Positions 1 through 21,081 of a DNA stretch of 30,126 bases are shown piece after piece. How positions within the stretch are numbered: position 1 is the first letter of the stretch; each line of letters opens with the position of its first letter. A program made the position numbers and the translations under genes. The stretch comes from Sphingomonas sp. HDW15A (GTDB taxonomy: Bacteria > Pseudomonadota > Alphaproteobacteria > Sphingomonadales > Sphingomonadaceae): positions 2,310,001 through 2,340,126 of the forward strand of contig NZ_CP049870.1 of NCBI RefSeq assembly GCF_011301715.1, given 5' to 3'. The notes beneath the pieces are model-generated. The model did no database searches, was not told where the DNA came from, and saw only the letters and a list, made by a program, of their open reading frames with translations.

Positions 1-2355
<2,355 letters not shown>

Positions 2356-2378
2356 CCCCCAATCAGCGTGCCGAAGGG

Positions 2379-2412
2379 AAAAGCCGGTGGTGCCCTCCGC
2401 CGGCTTTTCTTT
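2379..2412 (+). terminator. Hairpin terminator after katG
   Basis: AAAAGCCGG at 2379-2387 and CCGGCTTTT at 2400-2408 form a perfect 9-bp inverted repeat with a 12-base loop, followed by CTTTT. It begins 23 bases after the katG stop and looks like a Rho-independent terminator. It overlaps the possible TTG start of the next gene at 2412, which favours the ATG at 2439 for that gene. Confidence 0.8.
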
Positions 2413-2438
2413 TGGCCGCCGCACCCCATCTTTCCGCC

Positions 2439-2993
2439 ATGCGCGACTTGTTCGGTACCGCGCCGGTCGCCGGCCTTGTCCTTCGTGAGGATGTCGTTTC
2501 CGAAGCGGAGGAGGGACACCTAGTCCATCGCTGCCAGGCGCTCGACCTCTCTCCGTTCCAGTTTCAAGGCTGGGAGGGCAAGAGGCTCACCAAGAGCTAT
2601 GGGTGGCATTACGACTTCGACCGCGGACGGATTGGGGAAACAGAGCCGATCCCCGACTGGCTGCTAACTGCGCGGGAGAAGGCGGCGAATGCTCTGGGCC
2701 GCGATCCGGTGGCCTTTCTACAGGCGCTCGTTATCCGATACGATCCCGGTGCCGGCATTGGCTGGCATCGCGACCGCCCTCAGTTCGACGAGGTGATTGG
2801 CGTCACGCTGGCCAGCGACGCGACCCTCGCCTTTCGCCGCCGCCGCGAAGATGGCAAGTTCGATCGCACCAAGCAGCCGCTTCATCGCCGCTCTGCCTAT
2901 CTTCTTTCCGGAGAGGCGCGAGCGGAATGGCAACATGGCATCGCAGAGCATGAGGCGCTCCGCTTCTCCCTGACGTTCCGAAGCCTTCGCTAG
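2439..2993 (+). CDS. AlkB-like 2-oxoglutarate/Fe(II) dioxygenase
   Basis: A protein of 184 residues of the AlkB family, which removes methyl lesions from nucleic-acid bases by oxidation. The iron ligands are visible as His110-Arg-Asp112 (GWHRDRP) and His166 (EWQHGI). The 2-oxoglutarate-binding arginines are in RFSLTFR (Arg175, Arg181). Family members usually place these motifs in this order at the C-terminal half, as here. I chose the ATG at 2439; an upstream TTG at 2412 lies in the katG terminator. No good Shine-Dalgarno is visible. The stop overlaps by four bases (CTAG) with the stop of the convergent amidase gene. The substrate (DNA, RNA or protein) cannot be told from the sequence, so I give no alkB symbol. 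Placement after katG suggests a stress-defence neighbourhood, but the terminator separates the two. Confidence 0.85.
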   Translation: MRDLFGTAPVAGLVLREDVVSEAEEGHLVHRCQALDLSPFQFQGWEGKRLTKSYGWHYDFDRGRIGETEPIPDWLLTAREKAANALGRDPVAFLQALVIRYDPGAGIGWHRDRPQFDEVIGVTLASDATLAFRRRREDGKFDRTKQPLHRRSAYLLSGEARAEWQHGIAEHEALRFSLTFRSLR

Positions 2994-5182
2994 CGCGTGC
3001 GCCTTGCCTCACCGGGACGATACGCCTCGACCGCCTGGGCGGCGATCTCACGGGCATCGAACGGCACGGGCAGCAGACGACCATCGGCATAGGCCTGCGC
3101 CTGATCGGTGAAATGCGGTGAGGCCGGGTCGCCGTTCACGCCGCCGGCAGTCACGGCCATCGCTTTCGGGCCAGTGGGCGTAAATTCAACCACCGCGACG
3201 AAGCTGTTGCCGCTCGTTCCATAGCGCTTCTTCGTCCCCGGATAGGTTTGCGCGCCGAAGGAGGCGAGTGTGCCCCAGCGCGCCGAAGGGAAGCCGACAG
3301 CGATGCTCGGTTTCTTGTCATCGAACGTCTGGGTGATCGACCCGTCGTTGCGCTGGAAGCGGTTGATGTCGCCCCATTTCACGCGCCAGTCGCCATAGAG
3401 ATCGCGCATTTTCGCGACCGCTTCAGTAAGGGTTTCGAGCTGCACGTTAGCCGGCGCCGCGATCATCCGGCCGTAGCCGACCTCTTCGTCGTTGGGTGGA
3501 CGGTCCGTACCTAATGCTTTCTCCCACATGATTTCTGCCCAGTTGACGGCGAGAGATAGCGCCTCGCTGTCCTTCCTCCAGCGCCTGTCCCAGTTCTTCA
3601 GCAAGGTGATTGGCCCTTGCAGCGAGCGCCTTCGCGAATCGCTGCGCGGCAGTGCGGCGTAAGCCGCGAAAAGCGGTGGTAGCAGTCGGTCGAAACCCGG
3701 ATTGGCCGTATCGTAGGCCGCCGCGCGGAGGTCTTCCGCCGTGAACTTGCCCTGTCCCGAAAGTACTGCGAGGGCATGGTCCGTTCGGGGGTTCCAGCCC
3801 CATTGGTCCATATAGGCCGGGAAGCGTCGCGGATCGAGCGTGCCCTTGCCGGCTGCGGGCCATGGCGCATCGTTGACGTTGAAGACGAAGCCGGACTTCG
3901 GGTTGATGACGTTGGGCAGGCTGTCGATGTCGTGAAGACCCCGCCAGCCGGTCCTCGGATCGCTGCCATCAACAACTCCGCGATATTTGAAGCGGTGATC
4001 GCGAAGCGGAACGAACTGCGGATGAAGGTAGGCGAAGTTGCCGCTGCTGTCGGCAAACAGCGTGTTGTTGGAGGAATTGGCCCGCAGGGCCGAGACCTCC
4101 ATGAACTGCTTGAGGCTGGTCGCCTTTGTTCGGCGGAAACTCTGCTCGAGCGCTTTTGCCGGCTCGTCCATGATCGCGAAAGCGATGAAGCGGCCGTTTT
4201 CGCTCCTGACGATCGGCCCGTGCATTGTCCGGAAGGTCGTTATTGTCCTCGTCGCCAGTGTCCCGTCCGGCTGGCGCACGCGCAGGGTGATCGGATTCAG
4301 CCCGACCGGCCGGACGTCGCTTCCGTAGCGATAACCGAGCTTTCCGTTCGCCATCCGCGCAAACGTCACCGCAAACTCGTCGCGATTGTCGAGTCCGCTC
4401 GAAGTGTGCATCCACCCGGCCTTCTCGTTGAAACCCTGGTAGATGAAGAACTGGCCCCAGGTAACGGCGCCATAGGCATTAAGCCCCTCGCCGCTGGTCA
4501 TCTGTACGACGTCGCGGAAGAAGAAGCTGGTGTGCGGATTGATCAGCAACAAGGGATTGCCACTGGCACTCCGCGTTGGCCCGATGGCGATCCCGTTCGA
4601 TCCGGCCGGCTCGCCCCAGGGCATGATCGATGCCCTTCGCGCCGCTCCGTCGTCATAGAGCGCCTCTAGGGCTGCGACGTCGACATATTCGATGTCCCCG
4701 CCGATGCTCCCTTCCGAAAAGCTCAGCGCCATCCACGGCTCGAAGTGCGTCAGGACCCGCGGCTTCACTTCGGGATGAGTGACAAGGTAGTAGTTGAGAC
4801 CGTCAGCCCAGGCATCCATCAGCTTGCGAAGCCACTGCGGGCTTGACCGATATTTCGCTCTTAAGGCGTCGTGATCGATCCACAGCCGCTGGCGAACGTC
4901 CTTCCACAGCGCCTTTTCGCCTTCGGCTTCGGCCAGCCGCCCCAAGCTCGCCAGATAGTTGGTCTCGACGCGATTGAAGTCGTCTTCCGCCTGCGCGTAG
5001 ATCATGCCGAACACCGCATCGGCGTCGGTCCCACCGCGAACGTGGGCAATCCCCAACGGGTCGCGAATGATCGTCACGTTGGCGGCGCGTGCTGCCAGGC
5101 GTTCGGGCTCGCTCGGCGCCATTTTCGTGGTGGCGGGCGCAGCGAGCAACGCCGCAGAGATCAAGCCTAACCAGATCTTCAT
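2990..5182 (-). CDS. Secreted penicillin-acylase-family amidase (Ntn hydrolase, S45)
   Basis: A protein of 730 residues with an N-terminal signal peptide (hydrophobic LGLISAALLAA after MKIW), so it should be periplasmic. It belongs to the penicillin amidase family, whose precursors cut themselves into alpha and beta chains, exposing a catalytic N-terminal Ser on the beta chain. The expected site is GEPAG/SNGIAIGP with Ser195. The sequence around it (beta-chain LLINPHTSF, alpha-chain GIAHVRGGTDADAVFGMIYAQAEDDF) is typical. Members hydrolyse beta-lactam side chains, acyl-homoserine lactones or other N-acyl amides; the substrate cannot be read off here. The ATG at 5180-5182 is preceded by GAGGGA. 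The gene stands alone: 148 bases separate it from the CHAT gene upstream, and it converges on the alkB-like gene with a four-base stop overlap. Confidence 0.9.
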   Translation of the reverse strand: MKIWLGLISAALLAAPATTKMAPSEPERLAARAANVTIIRDPLGIAHVRGGTDADAVFGMIYAQAEDDFNRVETNYLASLGRLAEAEGEKALWKDVRQRLWIDHDALRAKYRSSPQWLRKLMDAWADGLNYYLVTHPEVKPRVLTHFEPWMALSFSEGSIGGDIEYVDVAALEALYDDGAARRASIMPWGEPAGSNGIAIGPTRSASGNPLLLINPHTSFFFRDVVQMTSGEGLNAYGAVTWGQFFIYQGFNEKAGWMHTSSGLDNRDEFAVTFARMANGKLGYRYGSDVRPVGLNPITLRVRQPDGTLATRTITTFRTMHGPIVRSENGRFIAFAIMDEPAKALEQSFRRTKATSLKQFMEVSALRANSSNNTLFADSSGNFAYLHPQFVPLRDHRFKYRGVVDGSDPRTGWRGLHDIDSLPNVINPKSGFVFNVNDAPWPAAGKGTLDPRRFPAYMDQWGWNPRTDHALAVLSGQGKFTAEDLRAAAYDTANPGFDRLLPPLFAAYAALPRSDSRRRSLQGPITLLKNWDRRWRKDSEALSLAVNWAEIMWEKALGTDRPPNDEEVGYGRMIAAPANVQLETLTEAVAKMRDLYGDWRVKWGDINRFQRNDGSITQTFDDKKPSIAVGFPSARWGTLASFGAQTYPGTKKRYGTSGNSFVAVVEFTPTGPKAMAVTAGGVNGDPASPHFTDQAQAYADGRLLPVPFDAREIAAQAVEAYRPGEARRTR

Positions 5183-5330: not shown

Positions 5331-8300
5331 TCAGCGCGCGGCCAGGTTACCGGGGATCATCGGCTTGGCTCCATCGCCAAGGATGATGAACGCCGCCCAG
5401 TAGAACGGATGGGACGTGTTGGCGTCGTCCATCAGGCCGCGCTGCGCTTCGGCGAGCGCGCCCGCGATGGGCTGTCCAGGGCGGGCCGAAACCAGTCCGC
5501 TGACAAGCCGCTTGGTCGCATCGAAGTCATCCGGCACCTGCCAGTGGCTCGCAACGACAGAGCGTGCTCCGGCACCGACGAATGCGCGGACGAGGCCGTC
5601 GAGAGCATAGTTGCCGCCCGTTAGGATGCCGGCCTCGCGGGAAGCCTGTGAGGTCGCCGCGCCGGCGGTGTCGCATGCGGATAGAATGACCAGGTCGGCA
5701 TTGAGCTTGAGGTCGAAGATCTCGCTGAAACTCAGCAGACCGTCAGATCCCGGCCCGCCGAAAGAGGTGACCAAAGCCGGTCGCGCCGGGCAATCCGGCC
5801 GCGGCGCTGTGACGAGGCCATGGGTGGCGAAATGAAGTATCCGGTAGTCGTCGAGCTGCGGATTGCCCAGAAGCGCCGTGTCGCTGAATGCCGCTCCGGT
5901 CAGCACGGCCGACTTGTCCGCCCCGAATGCCGCTCGTGCGACCATCAACTCGGCGGGCGAAATCGGCGCCTGCCAGGTCTGCACCGGCCAGTCGCATTCG
6001 TCAGCTGCGGCGACGACGGGCTTCGCGGCCACCGGCTCATTGTTGCCAAGGCCAAGATAGGCCTGGCGAGCGCGCGATGGGGCGAGTGCGCGAACGTCGA
6101 GGAAGCTGCGCGGACTGACGGAAATGGAGATGTTGCGGCCCCGGCCCAGCCAGTCGATGCCGCGCATGTCAAACGGGTCGGCGCCCGGCGCTGTGAGCCT
6201 GGCCTTGTAGGCGGCGAGGCCTTCGTCGCGCGCGATCAGCAGGTACGGCGGAAGCTGGAGCATCGGCCCGTCCGGCTCGAACACCAGGTGCTTCTGGCCC
6301 TGGACGTCGGCGTCGACAGGCCCGAAGAGATCGCGATAAAGCTTGCGGGCGCGATCGACGTCGAATGCGCCGATGGACGTTTCACCGTTCACATTTTCAA
6401 CGATCGAGCGGCGGATCGCCGACACCTCGTCGGTCAGCATGCCACGTGTCGGCGCGAGCCGAATTGCACGTGCCCCGCCATTGGTCGCGTAAATGGCGTA
6501 AGCGCGGTCGCCGACGACCATGAGCTTATAATAACCTTCGCCGGCGCGGAGCGCTCCGCGGAGTTCGGTAAGTTCTGTTCGCGTCGGGGCGAGAACCTTG
6601 TAGCGCGGATAGTCGGCGAGCTGCGACTGCAGCTTGACCTGGTCGGCGCGCAGCGCTTCGAGGCTCGACTTGGCAGCGGCGAGGTCCTCAAGATCGCGCG
6701 GCGTGGGCGCGACCTTGGCCGACAAAGTCGCAATCTCCGCTTCCGTGCGGGCAACATCGCGTGTGCGTGCGACCGCCAGCCTGAAAAGGTCCGCTGCCGC
6801 ATCGCTGCCTTCCGACATCTGACGCGCGAAGACCGCCTGCGTCTGGGCGACGCCGGGGCGCTGCAGTTCCTGGGCGGCCCGGAACATCTCGGCCGCGGCC
6901 TCAGCCGATCCATCGCGGGCAAGCATCTCGAAATAGGGCGAGAGCAGGTTACGCAAGGCCGTTCCGCTGTCTGGAACGGACGCCGCCTGATCCACGATGG
7001 AGGCGAACAGTGCGCGCGCTTCGGCGTGCTGCCCGCGCCGTGCTATGAAAGCGGCCTTGCGCGCCCGCGCGGCCAGGAGCATCGGCGATTCCGGATAGTT
7101 TTGCTGAAGCAGGCTGATCGCGTTGTCGAACGCACCGTTTGCGGAATCCGCGTTCCCGGCGGCCTCACTGACCAGCGCTCGCTCGACCGCTATATCGGCG
7201 GATAGCCAGGCCGCCGACGAAAGCTTTCCGTCGCGAACCTCGCTCAGCTTGTCACCGGCTTCATCGAGGGCCCGGAGCGCCTCGGGATAACGGCCGGCCT
7301 GGCGGAGCGCGATACCGCGCAACTGTTCTGCCTGCGCATCGAGGATTGCTGCGCGCTCGATCGGCCGTAGCCCGCTTCCGAAGTTGCTCAGTTGCTGGGC
7401 CGTGCTGTTCTCACGGTTGATCCCCTCGGCCAGCGGAATGTTTATCAGCCCATTGCGCAGCTCTTGGCTTTCGTCGATCTCGACATCGGCGACCTGCTTG
7501 GCGAGTGCCGCGATCGCGGCCTCGCTATTGCGCTGGTTGAGCTGGTTGATTGCCCGGTAATTGCGGATCAGGCGCTGAAGCACGCCGTCGCTTTGGGGCC
7601 CTCGCTGCTCGGCCAGGTTGAGCAGTCGCTCGGCGGCGGCGAAGTTACTGAGGTTAGATTGTTGCAGGCCCTGGTTTGCAAGAGCTTCGCCAAGTGCGGT
7701 CGAGTCCTGGTTTTCGCGTTGGGCGATGGTCTCGAAAAACTCCGCGGATTGCGCGAACTGGCCACCGTTGTTGCGGGCGTAGGCTTCGGTCCGAGCCGAG
7801 CTGGAATCGAGCGATCCTGCCTGGATCCGCGCGAAAGCCGCGGGATCGCTGACTTCCGTCGTGGCAACGCGGATCGCACCGCTTTGCGGAACATCGGCGA
7901 CGACGGATGCGAGCGCCAGTTGGAGGGCGGGGTCGTAGCCGGCGAGGCCTTCGACCAGGTAAGACGTCTTGCCGCGGTCGGTTGCATAGCGGCGATAGTC
8001 CAGTTTTTCCGCTTCATCGCGGCATTTGACGGATCGCACTTCGCCGATCCCTTCGATTGTAACGGATTCCTCCGTGCCGCACGCCAGCGATTTGGCCCCA
8101 AGGCTGCTTGGTTCGGTAGCAAGATTCACGGCGCGTCGGACGGCGATCAGGCTTCCGACCGAAGCGGCCGCATCGCGGCAGGTAAGGGCGTAGGCCCGGT
8201 CGAAGATTCCGGTCAGGCGTGTATCCTGGGGCCGGCTCTGCGCGGTGCACATCACGCCGGAATCGCCGATCCTGAAGCTGTTGCGGTTCGCAATCGGGGT

Positions 8301-8380
8301 GACTGCCCCCATGCGGGCATGGTGCTGGCCGCCACCGTTACTAGGAGCGCCATCCTACCGATACGCGATACCCCGGTCAT
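5331..8380 (-). CDS. Secreted TPR-CHAT caspase-like protease (one-base frameshift in signal peptide)
   Basis: The C-terminal domain is a CHAT (caspase-like, clan CD cysteine peptidase) domain with catalytic His in LHFATHGL (codon 5820-5822) and Cys in LSACDTAG (codon 5673-5675). Before it lie helical TPR-like repeats, then a charged coiled-coil segment (about 6600-6780). An N-terminal module of about 130 residues has four Cys. The long open frame begins at an ATG at 8312 that has no signal. An ATG at 8378-8380 overlaps the tpsA stop as ATGA, has GGAGG six bases upstream and encodes a clear signal peptide (MALLVTVAASTMPAWG). The two frames differ by one base at a run of five Gs (8306-8310); one added G joins them as PAWGAVTPIANR and gives 1,016 residues, with catalytic His854 and Cys903. 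It is the last gene of the tpsB-tpsA-CHAT operon. The substrate is unknown; TpsA is the obvious candidate. Confidence 0.85.
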
Positions 8381-8391
8381 TGCTTGCCTCC
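8377..8391 (-). promoter_or_regulatory. ATGA stop-start overlap with strong ribosome binding site for the CHAT gene
   Basis: The tpsA stop TGA (8377-8379) and the CHAT ATG (8378-8380) share bases as ATGA. GGAGG at 8387-8391 sits six bases before the ATG. This arrangement is typical of translational coupling and fixes the CHAT start at 8380 rather than the signal-less ATG at 8312. Confidence 0.85.
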
Positions 8392-11300
8392 AGTCCGACC
8401 CTCAGCCTGCCCGGCAGGCTTGGCCTCGTTGCCGTCCTTCTCGTCATCCTCTTCATCGTCGTCGGTGACCCCGTAGAGCGACGGGTTGCCCGCGCCGGAA
8501 ACAGGCTCGTTGACGTCTTCATCGCCGTCGAGCGGCCGCGTGTCGAACAGCGGCTGCGGGGCCTCGATGGGACTGGTCAGGTCGCTTCCGTCATTCTCCA
8601 CATTGTCGTCGATGTCGCCTTCGTTCCCGAAGTCCATCTCGCCGATCGGATCGTCAGTCAGGATGGCAACCTGGGTCGGAGTGACAACCGCCGCGGGCGG
8701 GATTTGCTCTTCCGGCGAGAAAGACGAACAATCGCCGGTCAAGGTGCAACCGTTGATGGTGCTGTCTGCAACGAAGATCTCGGTTCCGAATTCTTCGACG
8801 AAAGCCGCGCGGACATCGTCGCCAGTCAGCGTGCCGGTCGGCGTTTCGATCTGGCCGTTGATGACCATATTGATCGATCCGGGCAACGGGACGCTGCCCT
8901 CTTCGCCATCGCCCGCCAAGCTCAGGACGTTGATCAGGAAGCCGGCCGGCAATTCCTCGGTACCCGTGTTTTGAATCAGGATGTTCCGAAGAACGGCGTC
9001 GTCCTCATTCAGCGTGACGACCGCAGCGCGCACAACGCCCTCAGGCCGCTGGACGGCGGCCGGTGCATTCAGGTCGTCGCGGAAGCCTTCATACTGCGGA
9101 TTTTCCTCCAGCCTGGCGAGAATCTCGCTGCTGGCGATAAAGATATTCTCCGCTTCAATGTCGAGGGTCCCGGTTAGGTTTCCGTTGGTGTCTACAAGCA
9201 AAACCGATCCGGTCGCAGCGTCGATCTCGAACGTTTCGGAAGAGAATTCCACGCCCTTGTCGGCACCCAGCGTGAAGACCACGTCGCCAACCACGCGAAT
9301 GGTGCCGACCCTGCCTTCTTCTTCGTCCTCCACTCCGAATTCGACGACATCCACGTCGCCTGATGTTTGGATGTCGAACTCAAGGTCGCCGAGGTACATG
9401 AACGGCGCCCCGCCGCGAGACGTGTTCACTTCGAATTCGAATGCATTCGCGTTGACCCGGTCAATTTCGGCCTGGGTCAACCGGTAGCCATTCGAGCCAT
9501 CGAGGCCGTCACCAATGTAGGTCCCGTCCGAATTGACAGAGATGAAGCTGATCCCGTCCGTCGCGGCGAGCGTGGCGGTTGCTCCGATTGCGATGTCGGC
9601 AGACAGAAGCCGGACATAGCTTCCGGCGACCGAGCCGTTGATTGCCAGCAGGCCGCCGGTCTCAACGTCGACATAGCCATTGAATTCGCCGTTGGCGGTG
9701 ACCGAATCTATCGTCGTGTTGCCGCCGACAAAGGACGCGAACTGAGCGACGTTGGAGTCCCCTGCAAATGTCGCGTCGCCGCCGGTCGCGTCGATCGGGA
9801 ACGTGCTGAAAATCAGCTCCGGATCGAAGAACTCGATGCCCTGCAGCGTGTCGAAGTTGCCGTAGCCCGCAAGGATGAACCGCTCCGGAGTGTTGATCGC
9901 GCCGAAGCTGGCGTCGTCGCCCGCAAGTGCGATAACATCGTGTTCAGCAGTGATCGATTGCGCCGTAATGTCCTCAACCGCGTACAGGCCGACGTAGCCG
10001 TCGGTCGTGATGTCGCCCGTGACGATCGACGCCCCGGAGAAGATCTCGACGGCATTGCCTGGACCGACATCCTGAGTGGTGATCTGGCCGAGCAGGATTG
10101 GCCCGCCAAGCCCTGCATCGATGTCGCCGGTGGTGACGCTTCCCGCCGCTTCCAGAACGATCGAAGTGCCGGCGTTAAGATCACCGGTGTCTATGTTCCC
10201 GCCTGCGTTCAGCGCGATGAAGGTAGCGCTGTCGATGTCGCCGGTGTCGATGCTACCGTTGCTCGAGAAAAGATCGACGTACGAACCGCTGTCGATATTG
10301 CCGGTCGAGATTCCAGACGCAGCGCTCAGCGCGACCGGGTCGCTGGTGATAATATCTCCAACGTCGATGGAGTCCGCCAGGATCTCAAACGATCCCGACG
10401 TAAGATCGCCGGTCGTAAACGCCGCACCCGCGGCGACGCGGAAAAGTCCGGTCGTAATCGGTCCGTTGATGGTGATCGACCCGCCAGTTGCCACCGGAGA
10501 CTGGGCCAGGACGATTGTAGGATCAAAATCGCCCTCTCCGTCCCATGTGCCACCGCCGAGCAGAAGCATGGAATCGTCGCCGATATAGACCTGTCCGCCG
10601 CCCGTGCCCGTCGTCGCCACGCCGTTCATGGTCGTGTTTCCGCCGACTAGGGCCAAGATACCCTCGACTGCGTTGATCGCGCCGGTGACGAGGTTGCCCT
10701 GAGTTGCGAACCCGGCCGGGCCTTCAGCGGTGACATCGCCGATGGTGATGTTGCCCACCGCCAGCATGCCGACCGAGAAATCGTCGTCGACCGGCGGACC
10801 TGCAACCAGGTTCCCCAGTGTGATCGATCCCTGGGCGTTGCCGTTGATCTCATTGCTCGCTGTCACGTCGCCGCCGGTGACAGAGGCGCCGCTGTCGAAG
10901 TCGAACTGTCCACTGACGTTGGCGCTTGCGAAGACGATATTGCCCGCGGCCGTCATTTCTACGTCACCCGCCGCGATCGTGCCCGTGGTGATCGTGCCAA
11001 GCGTTCCGATACCCGAATTCGCGAAGGTGGGACGTGCGTCGAACGTGTTATCGACGTGGAGGACGCCAGTATATTCGAACAGATCCCAGCCGCCGATCAG
11101 CAGTTGGCCGCCGAGCAACAGATTGCCGAGCGCGATATTGCCGTCGGATACTGCGAACATCCGTTCGGTCGTCGTCACATTGCCGGCAACGATCCCGTTG
11201 AAGCCCGCAAGCTGGACGTCGCCAGTGGCATCGATGTTGCCGACGTCGATGCTTCCGCCGACCAGCGCCACTTCGTAAAGCGCGGCAGGGTTGACGCTGG

Positions 11301-14300
11301 GGCTGACGATGCCTGCGGAGAGATTGCCCAAATCGATGAGGCCGAAGGTCGTCGCGACGATGCTGTCGCCAGCGGTGACATTCCCGCCGGTGATGCTGGC
11401 GTCGGAGCCGATCCGCACACTTTCGCCCGCCTCCGCGCTCGCGAAGGTCAAGGCACCGATCGAGCCGACGTTGACGTCTGCACCTGCCGACAGCGCCCCA
11501 AAACTCGAAGCGCCGCCGTCACGCGAGCGAACTTCACCGCCAGCTGTCACGTCCTGCGCGACGATGGAGGTACTGCTATTCACCTCGACGTTCCCGCCAG
11601 CAGTTATGTTCTGAAGCGTGAGAGCTCCAGTAGATTCAGCCAGCACGTTTCCGCCCGCGCTAACGATGCCGAGGCTCATCGTGCCATTGGCTTGCGCGGT
11701 CACGTCGGTGCCGGCCGTGATTGCGCCGGTCAGGACGTTTGTTCCGGCGAGCACGGTGATTCCGTTTACTGCCGAGATGTCGCCGGTTTGGGCGTCTGTT
11801 CCCGCCTGGATGAAGGCATAATCGCCGGCCGTGACATCGCCTACGTGGACGTAGCCGCCGACAGTTGGGAAGCCGTCGCCGCTATCATAGGTGCGAAGGT
11901 CGATGCCTCCTGCCGCGTTCGCAGCGACAATGTCGATGTTTCCGAACGCAAGCAGATCGATGTAGCTGCCGGTGCTTACCAGAAGACCAAGGTCCATCGA
12001 ACCATCGGTGAATCCGTAAATCGCGCCGGCCGCCGTAATGTTGCCGCCTTGGATCAGGCCGTTCGAATAGAGGCCCGTGCCCGCGCCCGAACTGATGGTC
12101 GCGTAGGTAACCGACGAATCGCCGCTGAGGTAGGTCTCGTCGTCGCTTACAGCACTGTTGATCGTGAGGTCTCCGCCGGCGTCGGCGTTGATGTAGAAGC
12201 CTGACGTCAAATCGTTGGTCGTGATGTCCGTCGCGGCATCCAGCACGATCTCTCCGACCGCCGTGATGTCATTAAGCGTGATCGCTCCGCTCTGCGCGTT
12301 CAGATAGACTTCCGCGTCGCTGTCGATGTTAACCGCGGTGATCGATCCGGGCGCCGTGATGTCAACGATGTTCGCGCTCACGAGATTGGCGTTGGTAATG
12401 AAATCGCCACCTGTGGTGATGTCGAACGTGTTGGCACTATAAGTGCCGAGCGCCGTCGGTGCGGGATCGAACGTGTGCGGCACGAACGTGCCGGCATTGA
12501 GCGCCATCGCTCCGCTGACCGTCATCGAACCGTTGTTTGCGTCGAGCGCAAGTTCTCCGGTCGTCGAATAGCTAAAGCTGCCGATGGTGGCAGTACCATC
12601 GCGAACCGATACCCAGTCTTGGCCTTGCGGCCCATCGACATAGAGATCGCCCTCGATGAGGATATCGACCGACCCGATCGTCGCGTCCCCGTTCAGCACC
12701 CGGAAATAGCTTCCGCCAAACACGGTGCTCGTGCCGTCAACACCACCGGATCCCAGCCCACCGATCGCGATCGCGGTTCCAGTGATCGAGTCGGCAAACA
12801 GGAAGCCGCGCTGGCTAGGAATGTCGAAGCGATCCTTGGATTCGACGCCTATCAACCCAGTGGTCGCATTCCCGCCGCTTCCGCCGCCGCTGCCACCCTT
12901 TCCACCGGTAGCATTAGCCTGCAGCGTTACCGTCCCGACGTTGGAAGTAACGCCACGGATCAGGAAGCTTGACGATCCACCTTTCGCACTGCCGCCGTTG
13001 CCGCCGTTTCCGTTGCCGCCGCCGCCAAGCCCGGCCGCCCCGCCCCGCCACCTGCCGCGTTCGTGGCGGCGAACAGGCTCGTGACGTCGAAGCCACCCCC
13101 GCTGCCTGGCGCTCCGCTAGCGCTCACCGTTCCGCTCTGAATGCTTCCGCTAAAGGCGGCTCCACCCGTTCCGCCGTTGCCACCAGTGCCGGTGTCGCCG
13201 TTCCCGCCGACTCCGCCGTCGCCGCCAGTGGCGCCCGCACTGAGGACGGTGATTCCACTGGTCAAGAATCCGCCCGCGGCACTTCCGACGAAGCTGATCC
13301 GCCCCCCGGTTCCGGTGCCGCCATTGCCGCCATTTCCGCCGGTGTTGCCGTCGACGCCGGCGCCACCGTCACCGCCAATGCCATCGGCGACAACCGTCGC
13401 GCTAGCGAGTGTGAGAGTGCCCCCAATCGCGGCCGCACCCAGACCGAAGGCGATGTCAGCATATCCGCCTGTGGCGTTTCCGCCGTTGCCGCCTTGCCCG
13501 CCGTCGCCGCCATTACCTGAGATGTCGACTGCCAAATCGCCCATCGCGATGTCGCCGAAGAAAGCAACGATGTCGATTTCGCCGGCCGTTGCATTGCCCC
13601 CGTTGCCAGCGCTGCCATTGCCGCCGGTCGCGCTTGCGTCGATGGCCACCGCTCCGTTGACGGTGACGGAGCCGTTGTTGTTGGCATAGACCCCGACCGC
13701 GATCGGATTTGTTTCGTTGACCGTTAGGTCTGCGAGCGCGATGGCATTACCGCCTGCCGTGCCGTTACCCCCGATGGCGCTTCCGTCCATCGCCAAATTG
13801 CCGGCGATAAGGATGTCGCCACCAGCGCCCTGGAGCCGTGCCGAGCCTCCGGTCGCATCGCCGCCGGTGCCGGTTCCTTCGATAACGGTTCCGCCCTCGC
13901 CGGTCGCGGAAATATCCGCCGATCCGAGCGTGACCGTTCCCGTCTGGACAAACATGCCGGCGACCCCGCCGGTGCCCGCTCCGCCATTCCCGCCGTACGA
14001 TCCGCCGCCGTAACCCGAGGCATCGAGGAATACCTGCCCGGTCACGGTGATCGTGTTCACGCCGGTCGCGTTGGTGTTGAAATAGACGTTTCCGCCCTTG
14101 CCGGCGCCGCCACCGACGCCGTTATAATCGAAACCACCGGTGCCAATGGCGCTGATGTCGACGTAGGTGGCGGTGATCGTTCCGCCATTCCCGGCGAACA
14201 TGCCCGCATTGCCGCCCTCGCCATAGCCGCCCGTACCGCCATCGGTGCTGGACAGGCCGCCGCGGCCATCGGCAGTGGCAGTCAGGTCGTCGCCGAATGA

Positions 14301-17075
14301 GAGGGTGCTTCCGGCTCCGTCCGCGCTGATGTTCAGATTGCCGCCATCGCCGATCCCTGGCGTTCCGCCGCAATCCAGGCACTCGAGGTAGAAGCCGGCG
14401 AGACCGTCGGCGCTGAGATCCGTGCTTCCCCCAACCGAAAGGTCGCCTCCGCCTGCCGCAAAAAGGAACAGTTCGGCATTGCGTCCGGTGCCGCCAACAC
14501 TTGTTGCAGTATCGGCCAATCCGCCGATGCCGTCCGAAACCCCGGTCAGCGATCCTAGAATATTCAGCGTTCCCCCGCTCGGCGTGGCTCCGCCATTGCC
14601 AGCATGGATGGATACTACGCCCCCGTCGCCATCGCCCGCCGTGCCGCTGCCGAAGGCGACGAATCCGCCTTGGCCAGTCGCATGCGCATCGACATTGCCC
14701 TGAACCGTGAGCGTTCCGCTGCCTGTGGCGCGAACATTGGCCAAGCCACCCTGACCCAGACCGCCATTCCCGCCGAAAGCACCTCCGCCGCGTCCATCGG
14801 CAACAAGGTCAGCATTTCCGGTCAGCAGAAACGTACCGCTCGATGCGAGATAAGCGTTGCCGCCCCGGCCGAAACCGCCCGTGATGCCTGAGCCGCCCAA
14901 GCCGCTGACGTTGATGTCGTAATCGCCGCCTATTGTGACATTGGCACCGAAGGCGTCGATCCAGCCCTGGCCGCCAAGACCTTGCCCGCCCGTGCCATTA
15001 TTACCGTCACCGCCGAAGCCGCGGCCAAGAATCTGCAGTCCGCCCTGGAAGTTGATTGTGCCGGCGTTGCCGCCGTTGTCGCTGAGGCCGCCTTCGCCGG
15101 TGCCGCCATTGCCGGTGCCCGCGCCGTAAGAATCGCCGCCGTAACCTTCGATGGCAGCGTAAGCGAGGCCGGCCACGGTGAGGCTCCCTCCCGTCGCATT
15201 GTTCTGCGCACCGAATTTGACCGTACCGCCCTTCCCGTAGCCACCGTCGACGCCCAAGGCGTCGCTTTGTCCGCCGGCGCCAGTCGCGGTGAAACTTGCG
15301 TTGGCATCAAACTGGATCGTACCGTTTGCACCGTAGGTCGCTGAAATCGTGCCGCCGTCGCCACGGCCGGTGGCCGTCCTGCTGCTTCCGCCGGACCCGG
15401 AAGCGCTGGCCTGGATATCGTCGCCGATGGTCAGGAAGCCGCCGTTGCCGACCGTTTGGAAATAGATTTGTCCGCCCTGACCATTGCCACCGGCGCCGTT
15501 GCAGCTGAAACAGGATTCGCTGTAGCCGCCGTTTCCGCCCACGCCATCGGCCGTGGCGAATAGGCCTCCGTTGATGGATAGCGTACCGTCAGGACCATAA
15601 GCGGTAATTGCGATCAATCCGCCGACCGCCGAACCGGCGTTAGCCCCGTTGACAAGGGTTTCGCCACCATAGGCATTGGCGTCGACGCTCAGATCGCCAG
15701 CAATGACCAGCGTGCCATCGCTGCCGAGAACATTGATGTCGCCACCTTGCGCGTTTCCGCCATTCACGCCGGCCGTTCCGCTCGCCTGCCCGCGAGCAAC
15801 CGCGCTCAGGACTGCGCCTCCGGAAGCGGTTAAGAGAGCTCCGCCTTCTGCGCTGACCATTACGTCGCCAGCCTGTCCGGCCTGTCCGGCGGCAACGAAA
15901 ACGTCGCCCGACATAGTCAGAAGCCCGCCCACCGTCAGGTCGGCATTGGCGCCGATGGCGCGCAGGTGCACCATATCCTCGCCGATTATGGTGACGTCGG
16001 ACGCCATCGTGATGTCGTTGAAGCCTAGGAAAATGTTGTTGTTCACCGCGCTCGCGGTGATCGCAGAGGTGGTCGTCAAATCGTTCGAGTTTATGCTTGC
16101 GGTACCGGAGCCCATCGCTGCCGAGCGCGCAGTATCTGCGTCACCATTCGTGACGTTGCGGCCAGCCGAAAGAACGATGGCATTGCCGTCCACATTCACG
16201 GCGCCAGCTATGTCGAAGCCCAGTTGGGCGCCCGCCGTGATGGCCAGGGTCATCGCCTGGTTCTTCGGAACAGCGACCGCATAAATGCGCTGCGTCTCAC
16301 CGACTCCCGCTTCGGGGCCGGTGATCGTGCCGCCAATGACCACGCCGTTGGCGTCCGTCGTGCCGGCAGTGACCTCGATGTCGAACAGGCCGTCAGGCGA
16401 GAAGGTGATGTTCGCCGCTTCCGCGCCGACGAGAGCGGCGCTGCCGTTGACGTTGATCGTGCCGTTATGGACCACCCGCGGCGCCACCAGCGCGACGTAG
16501 CTATTATTCGACGTGGCGTTGATCTGCGCGCCTGACTGAACATCGATCGATGCGCCGGCGAGACCCTGCTGGAAAACGACCTGGTTGTTGCCGTCAATGA
16601 ACGCGCCGCCGCTAACCAGGATCGGCGAAGTCGACAGCACCAGGCTTCCAACGTTGAAGACGGAGCTGCCGCCGACGACGATGCCATTCGGATTGTAGAA
16701 GTAGACGCTGCCGCGGCCCTGAACCCCATCGACCGATGAGGTGACGGTCCCGTTGAGGCCGAGCATGTCGGTCCCGGTCGAGACATTGTTGAGCACCGCG
16801 AAGTCGCTCGACGATGAGAAGGTTAGCGTGTTGCCTGGCGCCAGGAACTGATTGACCCCACCAACCACCGTGCCCGTGGCATTCCAGTCGATGACCGCTT
16901 GTCCGCCGCCTGTAATATCGACGGTGCCTGCACCCGGGTTGATGGTGCCCGTGCCGGTGCTGAAGTTACCCGTGCCCGCCACCTGCGCCGCTGCCGGCGT
17001 TGCGCCGACCGTAAATACGGTCGCCATTGCGAGGATCGAACAGGCCGCTCGATTGCGGCGGGAGAAAGTACGCAT
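8377..17075 (-). CDS. Giant filamentous-haemagglutinin-like TpsA exoprotein (one-base frameshift)
   Basis: A two-partner-secretion exoprotein of about 2,899 residues after correcting one frameshift. It has a signal peptide (LAMATVFTVGATPAAAQ), then a TPS secretion domain at about 35-170 with the family's NPNGI motif (YFYNPNGIVVGG). Residues about 430-1400 are Gly-rich repeats of 40-50 residues; about 1400-2600 is a series of short beta-helix-like rungs; the tail is acidic (DDDEEDDEKD). No YadA or other membrane anchor is visible. The mature chain has only six Cys in three close pairs. The frame breaks at 13036-13050 in a GGGGCGGGG run: the first frame ends at 12960 with an Arg/Ala tail unlike the repeats, while the repeat pattern continues in the next frame. 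One added G makes the length divisible by three. The stop and start signals couple it tightly to tpsB and to the CHAT gene. The role is probably adhesion or biofilm, by family analogy. Confidence 0.88.
10114..10315 (-). repeat. Tandem 57-60 bp repeats coding beta-helix rungs in TpsA
   Basis: The motif (I/V)xTGDI(D/N)AG recurs four times. The corresponding bases lie at 10121-10130, 10178-10187, 10235-10244 and 10295-10304, spacings of 57, 57 and 60 bp, so the unit is 19-20 residues. This is the length of one coil of the right-handed beta-helix typical of haemagglutinin-like proteins. Looser copies of the same rung continue on both sides (about 8800-12800). Confidence 0.75.
12880..15730 (-). 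repeat. Gly-rich long repeats in TpsA (about 20 units)
   Basis: About twenty units of 40-50 residues follow one pattern: a beta strand like GTLTIxGDL, a short AxAxGxGG turn, then a Gly/Asn loop such as GGxGxGxGG, then another strand. Clear copies include GTLSINGGLFATADGVGG, GTLTVQGNVDAHATGQGG, STLSFGDDLTATADGRGG and GSVTVNGAVAIDASATGG. The Gly loops vary in length and sequence while the strand parts stay alike. The DNA is GGC/GGT-rich and so prone to length change and to base-calling errors; the tpsA frameshift lies in this array. Confidence 0.8.
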
Positions 17076-17085
17076 GATCACCTCC
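17073..17085 (-). promoter_or_regulatory. Perfect anti-SD match embedding the tpsB stop, at the tpsA start
   Basis: Reading on the minus strand, GGAGGTGATCATG carries the full GGAGGTGAT complement to the 16S rRNA 3' end, the tpsB stop TGA inside it, and the tpsA ATG one base later. The last codons of tpsB (Trp-Arg) thus double as the tpsA ribosome binding site. This fixes the tpsA start at 17075 and implies coupled translation. The frame stays open upstream to 17276 but that extension overlaps tpsB and lacks a signal peptide at its start. Confidence 0.9.
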
Positions 17086-18787
17086 AGGGCAACAGACGGG
17101 TGGTGAGAGTGATGAGGCCGCGAACATCGCCGCGCTCGTTGAGAATGCCGGTTTTTTCGAGTGGCACCGCTAGCACGGCGTCGAGCGCGATCTTGTCTTC
17201 GAAGGTCGCTCGGACGCCGCCCCCGGCCGACTTCAAATGATCGGGGTCGCCGCTGAAGTTCTTGTTCCAAACCCACAGGGCATCGCCGAAGACGTAGGGC
17301 TGGACGGCGAACCGGTTGCGCTGAAATGGAATCCGCGGACCCCTGAGCTCAAGTGCCGCGCCAACGCCGCTGTCTCCGGAAATGATCGCCGGGTCGTAGC
17401 CGCGTCCGATAGTGTAGTTTCCGCCGGTAAATTCCTCGAAGGAGAGCAAGGGGTCGAAGGCCAGCTGAGCCCGCGGGCTGAACGCGACCGCGAGCTTGCT
17501 ACCGAGGGCGAATTCCGCCGTCCCGTTAGCGCGGATGAGCGTCGCCGTTGGCTTGCCGTCGGCGCGGCTGGTCGGTGTCTCGCCGATCTCGCAGCAACGA
17601 TCGCTTGCTCCGAACACGTCGAGCCCTTGGCGAAGCTCCAGCGTGCCGGCCACGCGCCACGCCGGCCGCCGCGAAGTCAGGTCGACCGCGTCATAATCGG
17701 CGCGCAGCCAGGCGATCCGGATGTGGTCGCGGGCCAGCGGGCCGAAGAAGTCGACCTTCTGGTCGACCCAATCGAAACCGCCGCCAAGAGTCAGGTTGCG
17801 CTGCTGGCTGCGGATCACGGGGTAGGCGAGACCGAGGGTGGCAAACAAAGTCGTCGCATCGAGATCGGGATCGTTGTTCGACTGCTGAATGTCCGGCTTG
17901 GTCCACGCGTAAGTGAAATGACCGTTTACGGTCAGCCCTTCATTCCCCGGCCGGAAGCTGTGGCCGAACTGCAGGATCTGCTGCTCCTTGAAGTCCAGCG
18001 TCGAATAGATGGAGGCGTAGGTCGCGTCGCCGAGCCCGGTGAGGCCATAAGCCTGGCCGCGAAGCTGAGCCCCCCAGCGGCCACTCGATTGCGCAGCGAG
18101 GTTTTGAACCATCAGGTCGACCGAGAAGGGCTGGCGAACGACAGAAACTTCGCCGACCAGCTCACCAGGGCCGGTTCCCGCCGGCTTAAGGGTTAGCTGG
18201 ACATTATATCCCGGCAGGTCTCGGGCCAGCAGCAGGTAACGCTCGGCCCGATTGCGGTTGAACACTTCGTCTTCTGTCAGTCGCGAGAGATAGCCGGCGA
18301 GCTTGGCTTCGGCGCCGCTGGTCTGGCCGCGTGCGCGGACTGCGGTTACCCGCGCGAACAGCACCTCGAGCTTGACGACCCCGTTCTCGATCCGCTGCGT
18401 CGGCACCTGCACGGCCGCCAGATATCCCTGATCGCGTAAGTAGGTCGCGGCCCGGTCGCGAATCTCGCAGATGATCGAGACCGGCTGGTTGGTCCCGGAA
18501 TACTCCGCCCAGGTGTGGCGCAAATCCTCGGGCGAAGCACCCTTCAGATTGTTGAACTGAACGTCGCTCACCGTAACCCGGATGTCCGCATATTGCGGGT
18601 CGGCAAGAGGGCAGGGTGACCGTTCGACGTCGCCGACGACATTAAGGTTCGAGCGGGGCGGTTCCTGGGGCCGCACCCGGGTCAATTCTTCGCGCGTCGG
18701 CGCAATCGATTGCGCCGCTGCCTGGCCAGAGGCAACAGCCCCCACCATGGCAGCACAGATCACATACTGATTATTCTTACGCCCCAT
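17078..18787 (-). CDS. TpsB outer-membrane transporter (ShlB/FhaC/HecB type)
   Basis: A protein of 569 residues, the usual TpsB length. A signal peptide (ICAAMVGAVASGQAAAQ) is followed by a POTRA region (about 60-200, with VSDVQFNNLKG, YLRDQGYLAAVQVP and a TLKPAGTGPGELV strand pair) and a 16-strand-type beta barrel to the C-terminus. GRGYDPAIISGDSG near residue 460 matches the conserved RG(F/Y) motif in the loop that folds into the pore of TpsB proteins. It should recognise the TPS domain of TpsA in the periplasm and export it without ATP. A CC pair lies in DRCCEIGE. It is the first gene of the operon, with tpsA starting two bases after its stop. Identity is clear from domains and context. 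Confidence 0.93.
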   Translation of the reverse strand: MGRKNNQYVICAAMVGAVASGQAAAQSIAPTREELTRVRPQEPPRSNLNVVGDVERSPCPLADPQYADIRVTVSDVQFNNLKGASPEDLRHTWAEYSGTNQPVSIICEIRDRAATYLRDQGYLAAVQVPTQRIENGVVKLEVLFARVTAVRARGQTSGAEAKLAGYLSRLTEDEVFNRNRAERYLLLARDLPGYNVQLTLKPAGTGPGELVGEVSVVRQPFSVDLMVQNLAAQSSGRWGAQLRGQAYGLTGLGDATYASIYSTLDFKEQQILQFGHSFRPGNEGLTVNGHFTYAWTKPDIQQSNNDPDLDATTLFATLGLAYPVIRSQQRNLTLGGGFDWVDQKVDFFGPLARDHIRIAWLRADYDAVDLTSRRPAWRVAGTLELRQGLDVFGASDRCCEIGETPTSRADGKPTATLIRANGTAEFALGSKLAVAFSPRAQLAFDPLLSFEEFTGGNYTIGRGYDPAIISGDSGVGAALELRGPRIPFQRNRFAVQPYVFGDALWVWNKNFSGDPDHLKSAGGGVRATFEDKIALDAVLAVPLEKTGILNERGDVRGLITLTTRLLPWR

Positions 18788-18929: not shown

Positions 18930-19826
18930 CTAGCGAGCCTCGAAGCCGGCGATACATTCCGCAACCCAGCGCGCAGCGGTCAAAGCGCTGAGGTCCGTGG
19001 GGTCGAGCGGCGGGTCCCATTCGGTAAGGTCGATGACGCGAACCTGCGGCTGGGAAGCGAGAAGCCTAGTGGCCGCGAAGAAATCGGCGGCGCTCATTCC
19101 GCCGGGCCGGGCACCGGGCGCCGCGGGAAATTGCGAACGGTCGATCACGTCGATGTCGCAATCGACGAACACGGCCTCGCAATGCGCTACGTGATCAAGC
19201 GCCCTCTCGACAACAGCTTCAATTCCGAGCTGGTGGACCTCGCCGATTGTAACAAGCAAATTGCCATATGCGACCGCGTCGTCGTGCATGGCGCGCGAAT
19301 TGGCGAAAGGCGCGAGACCGACCTGGGCGACATTAGTGCCCGGCAGCCCGTCCTCGATCAGCGCCCGCACGGGATTGCCATTGCCGAGACCGCGGGACAG
19401 GTCGCGCATGTCGAGATGCGCGTCGAGCGTGACCAGGCCAATCTTGCCGAGAGCTAGGCCAAGCGCAGAAGCCAGGCCGTGTATGCCGGGGCGGGTAACG
19501 GCATTGTTGCCGCCAACCAGCAGGGTGAGCTTATGGCGGGATATGCTGCGGGCGACCGAGTCGCCGATCGGGCCTGTGGCCTGCTCGATTGTCATTCCGC
19601 CGATTTCAATGTCACCGTGGTCGGCGATAGCTGACGAAAGTTCTTGTCCGGACTCAATGTCGAACAAGCCTATGCGCCGCAATGTCTGGCGCAGCGTGGC
19701 CGGTGCACGGTCGCAATGGCCCGGGGTAACCGATCCCAGGCTCAGCGGCGCCCCGACCAGTCCGACCGGTGCATCTTCTTCCGCATCCACGATCAAATCG
19801 GCTAGATTCGGCCAGGCGCTCGTCAT
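18930..19826 (-). CDS. hutG: Arginase-family formimidoylglutamase, variant metal site
   Basis: A protein of 298 residues of the arginase/agmatinase/formiminoglutamase family. In this context it should hydrolyse N-formimidoylglutamate to glutamate and formamide, the last step of histidine breakdown. Two of the binuclear manganese motifs are clear: DAHLD (135-139) and DCDIDVIDR (222-230). The first motif, usually GGDHS, reads GGNNA at 105-109, so the His ligand is absent and replaced by Asn. That may be a lineage variant or mean altered metal use. The ATG at 19824-19826 is divergent from hutI with 40 bases between the start codons. It could be another arginase-family amidinohydrolase, but hutI next door makes formiminoglutamate the best guess. 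Confidence 0.8.
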   Translation of the reverse strand: MTSAWPNLADLIVDAEEDAPVGLVGAPLSLGSVTPGHCDRAPATLRQTLRRIGLFDIESGQELSSAIADHGDIEIGGMTIEQATGPIGDSVARSISRHKLTLLVGGNNAVTRPGIHGLASALGLALGKIGLVTLDAHLDMRDLSRGLGNGNPVRALIEDGLPGTNVAQVGLAPFANSRAMHDDAVAYGNLLVTIGEVHQLGIEAVVERALDHVAHCEAVFVDCDIDVIDRSQFPAAPGARPGGMSAADFFAATRLLASQPQVRVIDLTEWDPPLDPTDLSALTAARWVAECIAGFEAR

Positions 19827-19866
19827 GCGCTTGACCTAGCAGCTTCGCACCGCGATTCCATGGCTC
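19827..19866. promoter_or_regulatory. Short divergent spacer between hutG and hutI
   Basis: Only 40 bases separate the two start codons, so promoters must overlap here or reach into the coding regions. I see no clear -35/-10 boxes, no palindrome suggesting a HutC site and no strong Shine-Dalgarno for hutI. Confidence 0.35.
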
Positions 19867-21081
19867 ATGTGGGACCGCCTGCTGACCGACTGTCATGTTG
19901 CAACGATGACCGCGATTCCGGGCAATCCGCTCGGAATCATGCGCAATGCGGCCATTGGCATCGACGGCGGCCGGATCGTCCGCGTCGGAAGCCGAACCGA
20001 GCTCGCCGGCTTCCGCGCCCGGGAAGTCACGGCGCTTGGTGGGGCCTGGGTCACACCCGGGCTGGTCGACTGCCACACACATCTCGTGTTCGCGGGCACC
20101 CGGGCGAACGAGCATGCCATGCGCCGTGCCGGCGCGACTTACGAACAGATCGCCGAGGCCGGAGGCGGGATCGTCTCGACGGTTTCCGCAACTCGGGCCG
20201 TCAATATGGAGGAACTCATCGCGCAATCGCAGCGCCGCCTCCACGCGTTGATGGCGGGCGGCGTGACGACGGTGGAAATCAAGTCGGGCTATGGTCTCGA
20301 CACCGCGACCGAGCTCAAGATGCTTGAGGCGGCCAAGGCGCTAGGCGTCGAAGAGCCTGTCCGGATCGTCCCGACACTGCTTGCCGCTCACGCTTTGCCT
20401 GCGGATGCCCGCGAAGGACCAGCGCGCGATGCGTTCGTCCGGATGATCTGCGAGGAGATGATACCCGCCGCCGCCAAGTCGAAGCTCGCGACCAGCGTCG
20501 ACGCCTTTTGCGAGACTATCGCCTTCACCCGCGAGGAGGTGGAACGCGTGTTCACCGCCGCCCGTGCGAATGGCCTTCCGGTTCGTCTCCACGCCGAACA
20601 ATTGTCAAATCAGAATGGCGCAGCCTTGGCTGCCAGTTACAAGGCCTTGTCGGCCGACCACCTTGAGCATCTCGACGCCATCGGTGCGCGCGCGATGGCT
20701 GCGACCGGAACGATTGCGGTCCTGCTCCCAGGCGCCTTCTACTCTCTAAACGAAAAGAAGAAGCCCCCGATCGACCTTTTGCGCAAGGAAGGCGTTCCGA
20801 TCGCCATTGCTACCGACTGTAATCCCGGAACGTCTCCGTTGCTCAATCCCCAGCTGGCGATGAACATGGCCTGCGCGCTGTTCGGACTGACCTCGGAAGA
20901 AGCTTTGGCGGGAATGACGGTCAACGCTGCACGTGCGTTAGGGCTAGCCCACGAGGTCGGCTCGCTTGGGCCCGGCAAAGCGGCGGACCTTGCTGTCTGG
21001 GGTATCGAGGAGCTGGCTGAACTCGGCTACTGGGTCGGACTCTCGCCGGAGCGCAGGATCTTCGGTGGCCGCGATGGCTAG
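19867..21081 (+). CDS. hutI: Imidazolonepropionase HutI
   Basis: A protein of 404 residues, the usual length for this amidohydrolase. It opens the ring of 4-imidazolone-5-propionate to give N-formimidoylglutamate, the third step of histidine degradation, in the cytoplasm. Family motifs are all present: VDCHTHLVFAG with metal ligands His70 and His72, EIKSGYGLD, LHAEQLSN with His242, SADHLEHL and ATDCNPGTS with the catalytic/metal Asp317. The ATG at 19867 gives the expected MWDRLLTDCH start. Its 3' end overlaps the start of the Pr6Pr-type gene by eight bases, so the two are probably cotranscribed and translationally coupled, with hutU next. Confidence 0.95.
   Translation: MWDRLLTDCHVATMTAIPGNPLGIMRNAAIGIDGGRIVRVGSRTELAGFRAREVTALGGAWVTPGLVDCHTHLVFAGTRANEHAMRRAGATYEQIAEAGGGIVSTVSATRAVNMEELIAQSQRRLHALMAGGVTTVEIKSGYGLDTATELKMLEAAKALGVEEPVRIVPTLLAAHALPADAREGPARDAFVRMICEEMIPAAAKSKLATSVDAFCETIAFTREEVERVFTAARANGLPVRLHAEQLSNQNGAALAASYKALSADHLEHLDAIGARAMAATGTIAVLLPGAFYSLNEKKKPPIDLLRKEGVPIAIATDCNPGTSPLLNPQLAMNMACALFGLTSEEALAGMTVNAARALGLAHEVGSLGPGKAADLAVWGIEELAELGYWVGLSPERRIFGGRDG

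Follow-up and report, generated by a model that had tools for sequence, protein, structure and literature searches.

A two-partner secretion variant with a predicted CHAT protease partner and a conserved C-terminal tag on the linked exoproteins

The best-known CHAT proteases (Craspase and separase) are intracellular switches, and PorU is the sortase of type IX secretion. A CHAT gene of a different setting is found in the DNA of Sphingomonas sp. HDW15A that was analysed here (assembly GCF_011301715.1, contig NZ_CP049870.1, positions 2,310,001 to 2,340,126; this whole stretch of 30,126 nucleotides is referred to as the window), where it forms an operon with the two genes of a two-partner secretion (type Vb) system, tpsB for the transporter and tpsA for the giant exoprotein. 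With the type Vb systems of HMW1 and HxuA this locus shares a TpsB, a TpsA with a TPS domain and a pair of cysteines near the TpsA C-terminus (PMC3983070 and PMC5422565). According to PMC3983070, HMW1 is held at the cell surface via its last 20 residues and the disulfide located there, whereby its C-terminus is unreachable from outside, and according to PMC5422565 an HMW1-like C-terminal anchoring is expected for HxuA. Different from both, the CHAT operon adds a tag beyond the cysteine loop and a predicted exported protease. A further likeness exists to FhaB/FhaC of Bordetella with DegP, CtpA and SphB1, for which PMC8263021 describes that periplasmic proteases (DegP and CtpA) act on the C-terminal prodomain of the TpsA protein and control its release; those proteases are encoded elsewhere, whereas here a predicted cysteine protease of caspase-like fold is encoded in the operon itself. 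Csx29 of the type III-E CRISPR system (Craspase) combines TPR and CHAT folds, as does the structural model of the CHAT protein from Sphingomonas mesophila. The CHAT protein described here differs from Csx29, however, as it is predicted to be exported, possesses an extra N-terminal beta domain with four invariant cysteines and has TPS genes and not Cas7-11 as neighbours, no dedicated CRISPR search having been made.

The locus represents a genuine form of two-partner secretion that is widespread and includes a protease partner. A large group of CHAT proteins with export signals was found beside giant secreted proteins in many alphaproteobacteria. It is the sole operon-encoded two-partner secretion protease encountered in this analysis, and in the open-licence literature no paper was found that joins 'CHAT domain' with 'two-partner secretion' or 'hemagglutinin', an absence which carries little weight. 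New here is a conserved C-terminal module of the CHAT-linked TpsA proteins, for which neither a description in the literature searched nor an NCBIfam model was found. The module consists of a cysteine pair, followed 46-211 residues on by the tag [DE]PV[ST]GxGN and a short tail.

The operon and its predicted products

The operon tpsB-tpsA-CHAT had been proposed from the nucleotide sequence of the window, and its coordinates and junctions proved right: the tpsB stop is followed by two bases and the tpsA start at 17075, tpsA and the CHAT gene overlap in ATGA, and GGAGG precedes both downstream starts (at 17085-17081 for tpsA and at 8391-8387 for the CHAT start at 8380). Its features are the following.

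17078 to 18787, minus strand: TpsB, 569 residues, with signal peptide, POTRA and ShlB-type barrel, the outer-membrane transporter (Pfam)
12960 to 17075, minus strand: N-terminal part of TpsA, with signal peptide, TPS domain and Gly-rich repeats (TIGR01901)
8377 to 13116, minus strand: C-terminal part of TpsA, in a different frame, open from 13116, which maps onto an intact relative
8728 to 8748, minus strand: cysteine loop CTLTGDC of TpsA, 123 to 117 residues from the C-terminus, the proposed disulfide stop
8485 to 8508, minus strand: C-terminal tag EPVSGAGN of TpsA, 35 residues before the C-terminus
8377 to 8380, minus strand: ATGA overlap of the tpsA stop (8379-8377) and the CHAT start (8380)
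8252 to 8380, minus strand: signal-peptide part of the CHAT gene, in its own frame, 42 codons, stop at 8254-8252
5331 to 8354, minus strand: body of the CHAT gene, with N-terminal beta domain, TPR solenoid and CHAT protease domain
5820 to 5822, minus strand: predicted catalytic His of HFATHG, invariant in 100 of 100 aligned homologues
5673 to 5675, minus strand: predicted catalytic Cys of LSACDTA, likewise invariant in 100 of 100

TpsB matched the Pfam families ShlB (60.8 bits) and POTRA_2 (29.1 bits), both above cut-off, and is 77% identical to TpsB from S. mesophila. The N-terminal part of TpsA was recognised by TIGR01901 with 30.0 bits, barely above the cut-off of 29.1, and the Pfam scan of this part yielded no family. 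A TpsB with POTRA and ShlB barrel and an adjoining TpsA with TPS domain are thus present, as in type Vb systems, and TpsB-dependent secretion of the TpsA protein is predicted. The CHAT domain comprises residues 654-980 of the 993-residue open reading frame of the body (Pfam CHAT, PF12770, 189.8 bits) and contains the His/Cys dyad of CHAT peptidases; proteolytic activity of the protein is predicted. Three CHAT proteins that were compared with PADLOC gave no family.

For the fold, an AlphaFold model of the S. mesophila CHAT protein (86% identical to the CHAT protein of the window) was obtained with a predicted local distance difference test score (pLDDT) of 83.1 and a predicted template modelling score (pTM) of 0.79. 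A beta domain is joined in it to a TPR solenoid of helices and to the CHAT domain, and its best matches among solved structures were Craspase TPR-CHAT/Csx29, separase, gingipains and DdvA, a transmembrane anti-sigma factor according to its PDB title, on which the papers listed for it gave nothing.

The original prediction had directed the CHAT protein to the periplasm or the surface. A strongly hydrophobic N-terminal stretch was identified in 231 of 239 listed CHAT homologues as compared to 25 of 239 internal control stretches, export signals being judged by our own scoring and reading of N-termini, and lipobox-like N-termini were found in 10 of the 12 CHAT relatives from other orders that were inspected. 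An alignment of 100 rows revealed seven invariant cysteines, namely the catalytic one and six others, of which four belong to the N-terminal domain and two to the CHAT domain; this is what disulfides formed outside the cytoplasm would lead one to expect. Predicted export to the cell envelope is therefore well supported, whereby a location at the surface is less likely than one in the periplasm.

The C-terminal module and its linkage to CHAT genes

The frequency of the tag was taken from an unselected set only, namely the loci L088-L107, the first 20 of 28 candidates, which were picked regardless of the tag. All 20 TpsA proteins of this set, encoded in the order tpsB-tpsA-CHAT, carry the pattern [DEQ]P[VIL][STA][GS]xG[ND], ending 13-40 residues before the C-terminus. 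When the tag pattern was sought in the last 60 residues of 1086 open reading frames from the fetched loci (L016 on), it occurred in 49, all of which are TpsA proteins or pieces thereof. A profile of 41 columns was then derived from 25 TpsA ends of the same gene order and run against 246 Sphingomonadales genomes at an E-value of 0.01, which gave 58 matches in 52 genomes and 56 distinct frames, 20 of which had served as rows of the profile. Among the 36 tagged frames that remain, 34 are located within 25 kb and on the same strand as a listed CHAT match, and 20 of these 34 belong to loci in which the CHAT gene comes first, where the tag stands at the end of tpsA (e.g., LLDDPVTGAGNDDLW). As the profile made from one gene order also detects the tag in the other, the tag is common to both. 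Before the CHAT gene 36 matches (34 frames) were counted and after it 20, and 54 of the 56 tagged frames are near a listed CHAT (within 25 kb); the two exceptions are G147, in which a CHAT gene adjoins the tagged frame, and G006, in which a weak match (E-value 0.009) falls into a 777-residue frame without TPS genes. Among the ShlB-positive genomes, 51 of the 71 that have a CHAT match also have the tag, as compared to 0 of the 35 that lack one (Fisher p 4e-14, the genomes not being independent).

The cysteine pair, which is the feature shared with the HMW1/HxuA type of anchor, was identified in 56 of 57 tagged TpsA proteins, mostly after [ST]x[ILVF]N and 46-211 residues before the tag (54 by pattern and two slightly beyond the reach of the pattern; L107 is without it). 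L016 duplicates L103 and L024 duplicates L097, for which reason L016 and L024 are omitted from this set, and 21 of its 57 members come from stretches that were fetched through the tag profile. Cysteine pair and tag were both absent from six complete TpsA proteins without a nearby CHAT gene (0 of 6), these six being the ones that 20 such TPS loci yielded, the other 14 standing outside the comparison. A comparison of the window with S. mesophila gave 80% identity over the tag segment of 40 residues, but 36-38% for the whole of TpsA, meaning that TpsA diverges fast, yet its ends are conserved. Outside Sphingomonadales, a related core G[NK]xx[LR][WF] (e.g., SGNEALW and TGKDGLW) forms the end in 10 of 15 loci linked to TPS genes and was not found in the remaining 5 of 15. 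Six TpsA C-termini compared with NCBIfam at an E-value of 1 gave just two unrelated matches far below cut-off, and a tblastn search of plasmids with the last 75 TpsA residues of the window gave no match. Some TpsA proteins of the CHAT-first order (L118, L148, L165, L166, L177-L181) possess a second cysteine pair after the tag, within their last 25 residues.

The three-gene operon, too, is conserved. When 61 genomes were searched with the CHAT body, 9 matched, i.e., this genome and 8 of the 36 further genomes from its genus, as compared to 0 of 24 other genomes of the order outside the genus. The order tpsB-tpsA-CHAT with a 4-base tpsA/CHAT overlap was identified in L016, L017 (where the position of tpsB is beyond the contig end), L024, L025, L026, L028 and L092. 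Within the 246 Sphingomonadales genomes, PF12770 was detected in 92, ShlB in 106 and both in 71. Among the 150 CHAT matches listed there, 67 have a listed ShlB match at a distance of up to 25 kb, and in all of these (67 of 67) the two share a strand, a linkage thus beyond chance; tpsB is upstream in 34, two of which are halves of the one broken CHAT gene of this genome, and downstream in 33. In the second order the CHAT gene comes first and tpsB and tpsA come last; in many loci, genes for a CHASE2-adenylate cyclase and for an exported protein of small size stand in between (the Pfam scan covered three such loci). A Sphingobium plasmid shows the CHAT-first order too, together with a tagged TpsA.

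In the rest of the class, the CHAT profile matched 21 of 289 genomes at an E-value of 1e-60, 19 of them outside Sphingomonadales. For 18 of these 19 (the sample leaves out G392, and some of the 18 share a genus), our own profiles detected TPS genes in 9. In 6 others a long Gly-rich frame, mostly cut at its start, extends up to the start of the CHAT gene, and in 3 no TPS genes were detected beside the CHAT gene. Phylum-wide, the CHAT search at an E-value of 1e-45 gave 9 of 299 genomes, eight of which are from the same class, with G679 as the one outside. Plasmid-borne CHAT genes of other groups were considered as members of the same system, which was rejected, as out of 5 regions only the Sphingobium one contains TPS genes: no TPS neighbours were found in the CHAT loci of Pseudosulfitobacter and Agrobacterium plasmids, nor in those of Nostoc and Tolypothrix plasmids, the only two cyanobacterial loci and too few to judge. 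A TpsA-CHAT fusion suspected in L230 was likewise dismissed, as TpsA is a separate frame of 1513 residues there.

CHASE2-cyclases adjoin the CHAT gene in three CHAT-first loci and in all four (4 of 4) scanned loci of other orders, and it is possible that they serve as sensors of secretion or cleavage. They were located at 8005-10772 in L109, 8078-10958 in L115, 1992-3995 in L223 and 5782-7725 in L229; L109 and L115 also carry a protein of about 268 residues without Pfam family.

Proposed processing of TpsA and competing explanations

On account of the C-terminal tag shared by the CHAT-linked TpsA proteins, the CHAT protein was considered to be a processing enzyme. With moderate confidence we propose that the exported CHAT protein recognises the tagged TpsA tail, cuts it and controls maturation or release, [DE]PV[ST]GxGN probably being its substrate tag. 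The proposed mechanism assumes that TpsA would be exported to the periplasm and threaded through TpsB with its N-terminus first, until the small loop near the C-terminus, supposedly closed by a disulfide, would become blocked at the TpsB pore. The last approximately 70-245 residues including the tag would then remain periplasmic, in line with what has been proposed for HMW1 and HxuA. Here, the TPR-CHAT protease, either soluble or lipid-anchored, would recognise the tagged tail and cut there, a step which would mature the giant TpsA and decide whether it stays anchored or is shed. The tag peptide, being short, is a concrete candidate substrate and makes anchoring versus shedding of the exoproteins directly testable. 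The earlier suggestion that the CHAT protein matures or releases the exoprotein hereby gains a specific basis.

Several points weigh against this proposal. Binding and cleavage of TpsA by the CHAT protein, cut site included, are inferred, and as the genes of an operon are inherited together, any feature of TpsA could track the CHAT gene. Among the 71 genomes with ShlB and CHAT, 20 give no tag match at an E-value of 0.01, and a lineage of short CHAT proteins (764-821 residues; L108, L121 and L127) is encoded beside TPS genes without the tag. This lineage is separate in the CHAT tree, from which most CHAT proteins of other orders were filtered out and the window CHAT is absent, and in which the 'lone' row L199 has a long upstream frame that may be a TpsA. 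Furthermore, TpsB-CHAT pairs without an adjoining TpsA occur in G000, G015, G022, G207 and G226, one such pair being the second one of this genome (L021, 10934-15875); the search for a partner with TIGR01901, a model that is not very sensitive, gave a single match in this genome, whereas G015 and G022 gave none. In addition, 73 of the 150 listed CHAT matches have no listed ShlB or tag within 25 kb, although a part of them, at the least, belongs to other kinds of CHAT protein. Finally, the anchoring of HMW1 appears to manage without any linked protease (PMC3983070).

In a competing explanation, tag and cysteine loop serve this TPS lineage as an anchor that binds to TpsB, and the CHAT protein is a linked protease with another substrate, for instance in periplasmic stress or quality control tied to the CHASE2-cyclase. 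The C-terminal loop by which, according to PMC3983070 and PMC5422565, HMW1 and HxuA are held in TpsB is consistent with it, as are the CHASE2-cyclases adjoining CHAT genes in the three CHAT-first and four other-order loci and the TpsB-CHAT pairs without TpsA; a tag that is found in none of the 35 ShlB-positive genomes without CHAT and that lies 46-211 residues past the cysteine pair argues against it, and we consider it rather unlikely. It is very doubtful that proteolysis is secondary and that the CHAT protein mainly keeps hold of the unfolded giant TpsA in the periplasm prior to export, as a TPR chaperone or docking factor. Such a role would suit the long helical TPR solenoid (about residues 180-600 in the model), its sequence similarity to kinesin light chain TPRs and the client size of about 1100-4000 residues, but a pure chaperone would not need a dyad whose His and Cys are invariant in all 100 homologues. 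The CHAT protein might also be a sorting enzyme, which would cut TpsA at [DE]PV[ST]GxGN and transfer the new end to a cell-envelope anchor, as a type Vb counterpart of sortase and PorU whose state the CHASE2-cyclase would report in several lineages. A tag conserved on the clients and linked to the enzyme gene was indeed found, as in sorting systems; clients encoded away from the enzyme were not, 54 of 56 tagged frames being close to a listed CHAT match. The gingipains RgpB and Kgp as well as PorU use another transport route, and transpeptidation is not indicated for the CHAT protein; sorting appears quite improbable.

For the window itself, it has to be considered whether the operon is decaying, an explanation that is compatible with the others as far as intact relatives are concerned. 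The original prediction had called the dyad motifs intact, which holds for the dyad; it had missed that tpsA and the CHAT gene are both frame-broken in this assembly. The tpsA frame from 17075 ends at 12960 and the remainder is in another frame, open at 13116-8377, which locates the break between 13116 and 12960; signal peptide and body (open at 8354-5331) of the CHAT gene are in different frames as well, with the break inside 8354-8252. In S. mesophila (L092) all three genes are intact and the 4-base tpsA/CHAT overlap is identical. The TpsA pieces of the window correspond to residues 64-1704 and 1766-3234 of a single S. mesophila frame (3234 codons, counted from the first possible start) and the CHAT pieces to residues 1-25 and 28-1016 of a single CHAT protein of 1016 residues. 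Among the best 119 listed homologues of the CHAT body, 116 measure 1014-1034 residues, which compared to 993 is as expected if the body is lacking its start. Within one 20-kb stretch of the same genome, the second CHAT gene is broken near its C-terminus and a thiolase gene 0.7 kb further is broken too. Indel errors in the assembly are hence favoured and are the likelier cause of the breaks. A pseudogene cluster with real breaks would account for the two that affect the operon as well as for the one that affects the other CHAT copy; the broken thiolase of the same genome, the intact TpsB, the dyad codons in place and the intact operon of S. mesophila speak against it, making decay unlikely.

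Neighbouring genes

Beside the TpsB-CHAT pair of G207 (L193, 1423-6149), two proteins of 1047 and 519 residues are encoded, neither of which has a Pfam family over cut-off, and frames beginning like these two are also present beside CHAT genes in L018, L019 and L022. In the window, a Penicillin-acylase/PvdQ-like gene (2990-5182, minus strand) is located directly downstream of the CHAT gene and on its strand; L017 has a 732-residue frame with a similar beginning at this position. On the other side, a formimidoylglutamase-like gene and a gene for the imidazolonepropionase HutI, both assigned to histidine use, adjoin tpsB (18930-21081). At the position of these histidine-use genes L016 contains frames of 298 and 405 residues, and in view of these frames beside tpsB the operon may occupy a conserved genomic spot.

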